A stretch of DNA of 64,000 nucleotides from Tabrizicola thermarum (GTDB lineage: Bacteria; Pseudomonadota; Alphaproteobacteria; Rhodobacterales; Rhodobacteraceae). Shown here piece after piece: positions 1,216 to 2,787 of this stretch (position 1 is the first letter of the stretch; every line of letters begins with the position of its first letter). The stretch lies in the NCBI RefSeq assembly GCF_003574395.1, contig NZ_QMJY01000083.1, positions 248,001 through 312,000 on the forward strand, given 5' to 3'. The translations under genes were made by a program, and so were the position numbers. A model generated the notes under the pieces. That model made no database searches. It had not been told where the DNA came from and was given only the letters and a program-made list of their open reading frames with translations.

Positions 1216-1286
1216 GCAGGTCGACAGACCCGTCCCTTGGCGCAGTCCTCACCCCGTCAAGCGCAAGCCTTCTGGATTGCCGCGAC

Positions 1287-1339
1287 ACTTGCAAGTCAAT
1301 AGGGTTGCAAACCCACTTTGCAAGCCTTATAACTTGCAG
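1287..1339 (+). promoter_or_regulatory. Almost leaderless promoter packed with TTGCAA boxes
   Basis: Four TTGCAA-like boxes occur in 53 bp: TTGCAA at 1289-1294 (inside the perfect palindrome ACTTGCAAGT, 1287-1296), 1305-1310 and 1318-1323, and TTGCAG at 1334-1339. Their spacing is 16, 13 and 16 bp. The second box also reads as a -35 hexamer, with TATAAC as -10 at 1328-1333 after 17 bp. The predicted transcript would start only a few bases before the ATG at 1343, so the mRNA may be leaderless. I infer an operator array whose binding protein could be the HTH-bearing product of the next gene or another regulator. Confidence 0.5.
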
Positions 1340-1342
1340 GCA

Positions 1343-1975
1343 ATGAACCATGCCACAGTCCTTACCGGCGATGTGATCGGGTCCACTCTGGCCGGGTCGG
1401 CGGAAACCGATGCCACCATCGGCCTGATCCGGTCGGTCGCACTCGATCCTGACAACCTGCTTGGCCGGGATGTCCGCTTTTCGCGCTATCGCGGCGACGG
1501 CTGGCAGGTCTACAGCTCGGATCCCGACCGTGTCTTCCGGATCTGCGTGTTGATCCTTGCGAACCTGCACAGTCACCCGGACTTGCCACGGACGCGCATC
1601 TCGGCGGCCTGCGGCGCCGTCTCATCCCTTCCCGAAACCGGGCTTGCCAGCGCCAGTGGCGAAGCCTTCACCCTGTCCGGTCGCGGCCTTGACGCCATCA
1701 AGCGCCGGAAACTTGTCTACGCTCAGGCGGAGGGTCAGGCTGTCTGGAAGGCGTCCCTCTTCCGCCTGCTGGAGTGGCTGGCCTTTCGCTGGTCGCCCGA
1801 ACAGGCTCAGGCCATCGCGATGTGCTTCCGCCTTGACCCGCCCCATCCCGGCAAGTCGGCCGAAGAACTTGGGATCAGCCGTCAGGCTTTCAGCGCCCGG
1901 CTGGACGGGGCAGGATATGCACCGCTCCTGGAAGCCGACCTCGCCTTCCGCAGCGAAAGGACAGACCGGCCATGA
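1343..1975 (+). CDS. SatD-like protein: cyclase-like N-domain plus C-terminal HTH
   Basis: A 210-residue protein resembling the SatD family, named in streptococci for secretion and acid tolerance; its biochemical role here is unknown. Residues 5-15 read TVLTGDVIGST, residues 49-54 YRGDGW, and residues 106-120 contain GEAF and SGRGLDAIK. The order and spacing (Asp10, Asp52, then a Gly/Ala-rich segment) resemble the metal-binding and dimer motifs of class III nucleotidyl cyclases; this is my inference. Residues 150-190 (SPEQAQAIAM to SAEELGISRQAFSARL) look like a sigma-70 region 4/LuxR-type HTH. The start at 1343 was chosen because the homology begins there and the promoter ends just before it; an earlier ATG at 1277 would overlap the promoter. 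It overlaps the next gene by ATGA. Confidence 0.75.
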   Translation: MNHATVLTGDVIGSTLAGSAETDATIGLIRSVALDPDNLLGRDVRFSRYRGDGWQVYSSDPDRVFRICVLILANLHSHPDLPRTRISAACGAVSSLPETGLASASGEAFTLSGRGLDAIKRRKLVYAQAEGQAVWKASLFRLLEWLAFRWSPEQAQAIAMCFRLDPPHPGKSAEELGISRQAFSARLDGAGYAPLLEADLAFRSERTDRP

Positions 1976-2787
1976 TCGAAACCTTCGTAGCCCTGCTCTT
2001 CGCCCATACGCTTGCCGATTTCGTCTTTCAGACCAGGTGGATGGCCACCAGCAAGCGCAATCCTCTGGCGCTGGGCCTGCATCTGGTCATCGTCTACGCC
2101 GCAGCCGTCGCTGCGACCGGATCGCTGCACCTTGCACTTGTGGTCCTCGCGCTTGTCCATATCGCGATCGACGTCGGCAAGCTGGTCCTGACCTCGGTCT
2201 GGAAGACCTCGGGCGGTCTTGGGCCGTTCCTCGTCGACCAGGCCCTGCACCTCGCCACCCTGGTCGCCCTTGCCCTTTGGCTGCCGGACCTCTGGGCCCA
2301 GGGCCTCTGGGCACCCGGAGCGATCGTGACCGGGGATGACGGCGGCATCCTGGGCACCGGCCTCTGGTCGGACGAGGCCCCGCTCCCGGTCAGCCAGCTG
2401 CCCGCGCTCATGGCCCTTGCGACCGGCTTCCTCCTGGCGACCCGCGCCGGCGGCTTTGCGGTGGGTCTGCTGATGCTGCCCTTCGCCGCCGGCCTGCCGG
2501 CCGAGACAACTGCGGAAGGCCTGCCCGGCGCAGGTCGGGTGATCGGGCTTCTTGAACGCGGACTGATCTTCATCCTCGTCCTGATCGGCCAGCCGCAGGG
2601 CGTGGGCCTCTTGATGGCCGCCAAGTCGATCCTGCGCTATGGCGCGCTGAAAGAGGACCGCGCGCTGTCCGAATATGTCATCATCGGCACGCTCGCGTCC
2701 TTCGGCTGGGCCCTTCTGGCCGCCTATGCGACGGTTGCCGGCCTTGCCGTGCTGCCACCGCTTGGAATCCCGGGTGGGACGCCCTAG
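1972..2787 (+). CDS. DUF3307 membrane protein (SatE-like partner)
   Basis: A 271-residue integral membrane protein. The N-terminal 130 residues match DUF3307: HTLADFVFQTRW near residues 12-23, GLHLVIVYAAAV near 35-46 and HIAIDVGK near 63-70, with conserved His/Asp residues at membrane edges. The C-terminal half adds several hydrophobic segments, making it longer than minimal DUF3307 proteins. The start codon overlaps the stop of the SatD-like gene by four bases, so the two are translationally coupled. As I recall, SatD/DUF3307 pairs recur in distant bacteria, implying joint function. No catalytic role is established; a signalling or transport output controlled by the cytoplasmic partner is possible. 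Confidence 0.8.
   Translation: MIETFVALLFAHTLADFVFQTRWMATSKRNPLALGLHLVIVYAAAVAATGSLHLALVVLALVHIAIDVGKLVLTSVWKTSGGLGPFLVDQALHLATLVALALWLPDLWAQGLWAPGAIVTGDDGGILGTGLWSDEAPLPVSQLPALMALATGFLLATRAGGFAVGLLMLPFAAGLPAETTAEGLPGAGRVIGLLERGLIFILVLIGQPQGVGLLMAAKSILRYGALKEDRALSEYVIIGTLASFGWALLAAYATVAGLAVLPPLGIPGGTP

Follow-up and report, generated by a model that had tools for sequence, protein, structure and literature searches.

The satD-DUF3307 locus

The window, i.e. the whole 64,000-nucleotide stretch of Tabrizicola thermarum DNA that was analysed, carries close to its start a satD-like gene followed by a gene for a DUF3307 membrane protein. The features of these two genes are:

1343-1975, forward strand: satD-like gene, 210 amino acids, predicted cyclase-fold domain plus helix-turn-helix (HTH); open reading frame with 39 or more homologues
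1343-1732, forward strand: predicted class III nucleotidyl cyclase-fold domain, residues 1-130 (model, fold search, profile comparisons)
1370-1372, forward strand: codon of invariant Asp10 (67 of 67 homologues), aligning with the first metal Asp of cyclases
1496-1498, forward strand: codon of invariant Asp52 in GDGWQ (67 of 67 homologues), aligning with the second metal Asp
1742-1966, forward strand: four-helix HTH domain, residues 134-208 (Sigma70_r4 matches, AlphaFold model)
1880-1882, forward strand: codon of Arg180, which lies in the recognition helix and varies together with the operator (residue-base comparison)
1972-2787, forward strand: DUF3307 membrane protein gene, 271 amino acids, overlapping the satD-like gene by 4 bases
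1972-2316, forward strand: DUF3307 core, residues 1-115, kept with or without SatD (comparison of paired and unpaired proteins)
2389-2745, forward strand: C-terminal helices of the long DUF3307 form, residues 140-258

Of 150 genomes in the order, 39 supplied relatives of the satD-like protein, and 12 named contigs were added; almost all are from Rhodobacteraceae, with one copy per genome, and no SatD relative was findable in viral contigs and phage records. As a single sequence the protein matched no Pfam family at E<=1, including PF16264 (SatD), gave no meaningful NCBIfam model and found nothing in the PDB. The name SatD, which the first-pass annotation had used, is therefore carried not by a direct Pfam match of the window protein, which itself lies below Pfam detection, but by its relatives: PF16264 matched 6 of the 39 homologues (best E 4e-5), and the family profile found, at 2.7e-14, the locus L057, which passes the Pfam SatD cut-off (40.9 bits against 29). 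Because of this connection the window protein is, as judged from sequence, a remote SatD relative. L057 links it over its full length to the SatD family of the Streptococcus sat operon and is likewise paired with DUF3307, although its DUF3307 is short whereas that of the window is long, and relatives outside the Rhodobacteraceae have GDxF in place of the GD[GS]WQ found here. A weak SatD match in one further genome (G042) was rejected, as neither SatD nor DUF3307 was present in its region.

The identity of the downstream gene is certain (PF11750, 60.9 bits against a cut-off of 23), and the 4-base overlap agrees with the earlier description of the two genes as overlapping. The coupling proved to be obligate, with DUF3307 directly downstream wherever the flanks of a relative could be read: 42 of 42 family loci (in L036 as a partial gene at the contig end), 8 of 8 gammaproteobacterial loci, L057, and two annotated plasmid loci, where the gene for SatD bears the label hypothetical. 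The gene order sufT - satD - DUF3307 - iscA/hesB is conserved in Rhodobacteraceae, and the pair has therefore been inherited vertically in this family. Ten genomes without SatD keep DUF3307 in the same place beside sufT and/or hesB; the contig of SatD-less L158 ends 384 bases upstream, short of the sufT side, and that of G140 has too little upstream sequence for a judgement. The description of DUF3307 as a membrane effector is still a guess, as a fold search with DUF3307 gave no convincing PDB match. The C-terminal half resembled S5-pore-S6 channel modules with a Z of about 5, too low a value to be meaningful. Short DUF3307 proteins (about 127-185 amino acids) occur alone, without SatD, in other alphaproteobacteria and in phages (L144-L153, phrog_2470), so the DUF3307 core probably has a function of its own.

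Relation to class III nucleotidyl cyclases

The first-pass annotation had proposed, as its own reading, a relation to class III cyclases based in part on Asp10 and Asp52, which are present in TGDVIGST and RGDGWQ, 42 residues apart as claimed. When a profile of the 39 relatives was compared with all PDB sequences, the four best matches were to the class III adenylyl cyclase Ma1120 (E 7e-4 with the full length and 1.6e-4 with the N-domain), in an alignment from residue 3 to about 95 that placed Asp10 on the first metal Asp and Asp52 on the Asp of GDG. In hhalign comparisons with 28 class III cyclases the family reached a probability of 93-95%, against at most 5.8% for decoys (reversed and 50 block-shuffled), and a score of 50.6, against at most 21.7 for the 50 decoys. 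The family gave only 20-43% with GGDEF domains, far below its similarity to cyclases, and GGDEF membership was rejected; cyclases themselves gave 51% with GGDEF, which is below the value for the satD-like family with cyclases. The weak matches of the family profile over 299 genomes included two loci (L058 and L061) with class III cyclase motifs. The satD-like protein reached no match to PF00211, the class III cyclase family.

The template-free AlphaFold model (pLDDT 89.5) has the order b-a-b-b-a-b-a-b followed by the HTH helices. Nearly all of the 50 best Foldseek matches of the model were class III cyclases (E 1.8e-4), and VIA-align gave a Z of 11.6 and 3.2 A over 139 residues with 5mbg; with the GGDEF protein WspR and with GTP cyclohydrolase III the Z values were 9.9-10.1. 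Judged by pLDDT, Foldseek and VIA, the model contains the baabbab core characteristic of the cyclase fold, and the structure prediction and fold search that had been suggested for residues 1-130 thus returned the cyclase fold rather than an unrelated one. The proposed relation was therefore borne out by profile search, by profile-profile comparison and by fold. Sequence and model together indicate that residues 1-130 form a class III nucleotidyl cyclase domain that has diverged, and as a prediction this fold claim has gone as far as computation can take it.

Compared with class III cyclases such as Ma1120, Rv1264 and Rv1900c, the satD-like domain has the same fold, the same strand order and both metal aspartates in register, but lacks the conserved Asn and Arg and the PF00211 match, and adds a W/F-Q after GDx, an F..SG helix motif and the C-terminal HTH. 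With GGDEF diguanylate cyclases and GTP cyclohydrolase III it has a palm-type fold and metal-binding acidic residues in common. The fused HTH, described earlier as resembling sigma-70 region 4, was recovered both as Sigma70_r4 matches in 18 of the 39 homologues (best E 9e-5) and as HTH helices in the model.

The Tabrizicola genome to which the window belongs gave only three GGDEF domains and not one class III cyclase of PF00211, so the satD-like protein may be the only relative of the cyclase kind in this genome.

Conservation of the active site

Ten residues (G9, D10, S14, G51, D52, W54, Q55, G113, W150 and Q154) are invariant in 39 aligned homologues that are only 26-38% identical, which argues that the motifs are not due to chance. 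In the wider set of 67 homologues, which includes the gammaproteobacterial ones, D10, S14, G51 and D52 never change and position 54 always holds an aromatic residue. Free variation of both aspartates among SatD homologues had been named as an outcome that would speak against the cyclase relation; D10 and D52 were found in 67 of 67. The third motif of the protein is GEAFTLSGRGLDAIK, and in the register of our own motif alignment GEAFTLSGRGL occupies the place of the G..VN.A.R segment of cyclases, with F109, S112, G113 and L116 conserved among the 67 homologues. Its earlier assignment as a G..VN.A.R-type segment holds for its position but not for its catalytic residues, as the places of the Asn and the Arg vary freely: residue 110 is T, V, E, F, I and others, and only 29 of the 67 homologues have R at residue 114. 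Of the purine-specifying residues of cyclases (Lys/Glu with Asp/Cys), the place of the Lys corresponds to residue 48, which is Arg in 53 of the 58 Rhodobacteraceae and I, L, V or M elsewhere.

The alignment therefore suggests an active site that has retained its metal-binding half, while its transition-state half is without conservation. Since the transition-state Asn and Arg are unconserved, the protein should be called cyclase-fold and not cyclase; since both aspartates are invariant, it may still make a nucleotide product. This bears on a fairly unlikely alternative, namely that the protein is an active nucleotide-making enzyme (a palm-type synthase or an atypical cyclase) and that the C-terminal helices of DUF3307 sense what it makes, i.e. 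a Pycsar-like two-gene module with built-in transcriptional control. Strict invariance of both metal aspartates would be unusual for a mere scaffold, and GGDEF WspR and GTP cyclohydrolase III, both in the fold list, function without the class III Asn and Arg; the variation at the positions of these two residues argues the other way. The opposite alternative, that the domain is a dead dimerisation scaffold and SatD a plain constitutive autorepressor, would agree with the loss of the catalytic Asn and Arg and with the fold being a dimer fold, but it is very improbable given that the two metal aspartates, S14, the aromatic residue 54 and Gln55 are invariant or nearly so at about 30% identity.

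Operator-like dyads and the recognition helix

The region upstream of the satD-like gene contains three tandem dyads:

1262-1281, forward strand: operator-like dyad 1 (GCAAGCCTTCTGGATTGC, core 1263-1280)
1290-1309, forward strand: operator-like dyad 2, TGCAAGTCAATAGGGTTGCA
1319-1338, forward strand: operator-like dyad 3, TGCAAGCCTTATAACTTGCA, 4 bases before the ATG
1305-1333, forward strand: possible promoter read by eye (TTGCAA 1305-1310, 17 bases, TATAAC 1328-1333)

The three 18-20-bp dyads are spaced 28 and 29 bases apart, and when the complete genome was searched for this pattern the tandem was found in this place only. A consensus promoter scan called no promoter upstream of the satD-like gene; the possible promoter read by eye overlaps dyads 2 and 3. 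Should its -10 (1328-1333) be used, transcription would start a few bases from the ATG and give a near-leaderless mRNA (window positions 1319-1345).

Homologous promoters have the same architecture: 6-bp arms with an 8-bp spacer occurred in 34 of 66 (3.7 when shuffled), and 25 of the 66 had two dyads at a distance of 28-30 bp (shuffles: mean 0.8, maximum 4), as against 0 of the 9 testable promoters of SatD-less DUF3307 genes. Some homologous promoters (e.g. L022, L029, L171) contain no dyads. Where present, the arms vary between lineages with both sides changing together, and the base at the second arm position depends on which amino acid stands at position 180. Arg180 goes with G in 30 of 33 cases (the other 3 mixed), Pro or Ala180 with T in 5 of 6 (1 mixed) and Gln180 with A in its single case; altogether, a residue other than Arg accompanies T or A in 6 of 7 promoters, the seventh being mixed. 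Pairing of Arg with G, Gln with A and Pro or Ala with T is what protein-DNA chemistry leads one to expect of such contacts. On the best tree there are five residue-base switches, all of which agree, although only one is forced by well-supported branches; tree support is weak and the covariation is suggestive rather than statistically proven.

As computed, then, the HTH protein has putative cognate operators in its own promoter, which is the mark of an HTH autoregulator. Because this arm base changes with residue 180 in the recognition helix, the satD-like protein is most likely an autoregulator of its own operon, and because the dyads overlap the possible promoter we infer repression rather than activation.

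Coupling between SatD and DUF3307

We compared 64 DUF3307 proteins paired with SatD (56 from Rhodobacteraceae and other relatives and 8 from Gammaproteobacteria) with 10 unpaired ones. S/T219 (Thr in two), R222, E234 and Y235 are kept in all of the paired proteins, whereas S219, R222 and Y235 occur in none of the unpaired proteins and E234 in 2 of the 10. The N-terminal core residues H12, D16, Q20, K28, H37, H63, D67, K70, D89, Q90 and H93 are nevertheless present in all 10 unpaired proteins. On a tree of the flanking proteins and the N-terminal half of DUF3307, the absence of SatD needs three changes, at least two of them on supported branches. Since S219, R222 and Y235 are lost where SatD is lacking, conservation of these C-terminal residues depends on SatD, which in turn argues that the two proteins work together; they may be directly coupled. 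At L057, the only locus above the Pfam SatD cut-off, DUF3307 is 127 amino acids long and without the C-terminal helices, so that the coupling there must differ.

The dependence of the polar residues S219, R222, E234 and Y235 on SatD would also suit a nucleotide-making enzyme whose product these helices sense. A further reading, which we judge quite unlikely, is toxin-antitoxin-like: SatD would restrain a potentially harmful DUF3307 by repressing the operon and perhaps by holding the membrane protein, with the nucleotide site gating release. Absence of SatD is always accompanied by loss of the same DUF3307 residues, as such restraint would predict, and satD is reported to be an essential yet accessory gene of Streptococcus pyogenes (PMC11323703), which fits an antidote; on the other side, many genomes and phages retain DUF3307 by itself.

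The DUF3307 of L176 (a Salinivibrio plasmid) is the reverse of the SatD-less proteins, having kept the SatD-linked C-terminal residues and lost several core N-terminal His and Asp residues.

Proposed mechanism

The simplest account is a predicted autoregulator with a metal-nucleotide-sensing, cyclase-descended domain and a membrane partner. It starts from computed results, namely the cyclase-like fold and its homology, the conservation of both metal aspartates, an HTH, an obligate operon, operators in tandem that covary with the recognition helix, and a conservation in DUF3307 that depends on SatD. The C-terminal HTH would bind the tandem array of 20-bp dyads overlapping its own promoter; the N-terminal domain would most likely still bind a metal-nucleotide through the two-aspartate site; binding of the nucleotide, or of a nucleotide analogue, may then set whether a dimer or oligomer holds the satD-DUF3307 promoter; and DUF3307 would be functionally coupled to SatD through residues in its C-terminal helices. 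Taken as a whole, we regard this account as probable. The unit of nucleotide, DNA-binding and membrane functions envisaged in the first-pass annotation gains from the cyclase relation, the HTH and the obligate pairing, and is weakened on the nucleotide side by the unconserved catalytic Asn and Arg and the missing PF00211 match.

A more far-reaching version, which is unlikely, combines an active palm enzyme with the transcription factor: the product would act on the C-terminal helices of DUF3307 while occupancy of the nucleotide site controlled the operator array. If true, it would constitute a compact, previously undescribed second-messenger module across Alphaproteobacteria, Gammaproteobacteria and other phyla.

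With the metal-nucleotide-sensing autoregulator as the preferred reading, an unstudied two-gene unit becomes a testable new module of nucleotide-linked control, whose DNA-binding protein very probably regulates its own operon through the three dyads. The handles that it offers are the predicted metal-nucleotide site (D10/D52), the operator array with its specificity residue R180, and the SatD-linked DUF3307 residues S219, R222, E234 and Y235. It also bears on why the S. pyogenes gene should be both essential and accessory (PMC11323703).

Known systems and the question of defence

In the open-access literature no function was found for the SatD/DUF3307 pair despite its wide annotation. SatD appears there under an acid-tolerance name and is linked neither to cyclases nor to DUF3307; DUF3307 appears in one paper only, as an entry in a phage gene table, and the accessions PF16264 and PF11750 in none. 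A comparable case is DUF2652, an uncharacterised bacterial family that a computational study of 2016 related to the class III cyclases; most of its members have both metal aspartates. In the parts of that paper that were consulted, it differs in being another family, mostly single-domain, with the catalytic Arg in many members and with no mention of a DUF3307 partner (PMC4886424).

Pycsar systems likewise have a cyclase-fold protein and a membrane protein in one operon, but the satD-like protein carries an HTH, the pair sits at a fixed chromosomal location in Rhodobacteraceae, and neither protein had a PADLOC match. The same lack of PADLOC matches, together with the fixed place between sufT and iscA, which speaks against a mobile island there, led us to reject a defence origin. 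Both observations also count against the nucleotide-making enzyme, the single fixed place being unlike that of mobile defence systems, while one plasmid pair that adjoins a Pycsar system counts in its favour.

Among the neighbours of the gammaproteobacterial pairs, matches to defence models were of one protein per model and unspecific. The plasmid pair beside the Pycsar system (L177/L188) lies on the Sphingomonas insulae plasmid NZ_CP048421.1 at about 69-82 kb, where it adjoins the cyclase, the E2-associated protein and the effector; genes for TIR, ImmA/IrrE and helicase proteins lie close by, and the region has the appearance of a defence island on the plasmid.
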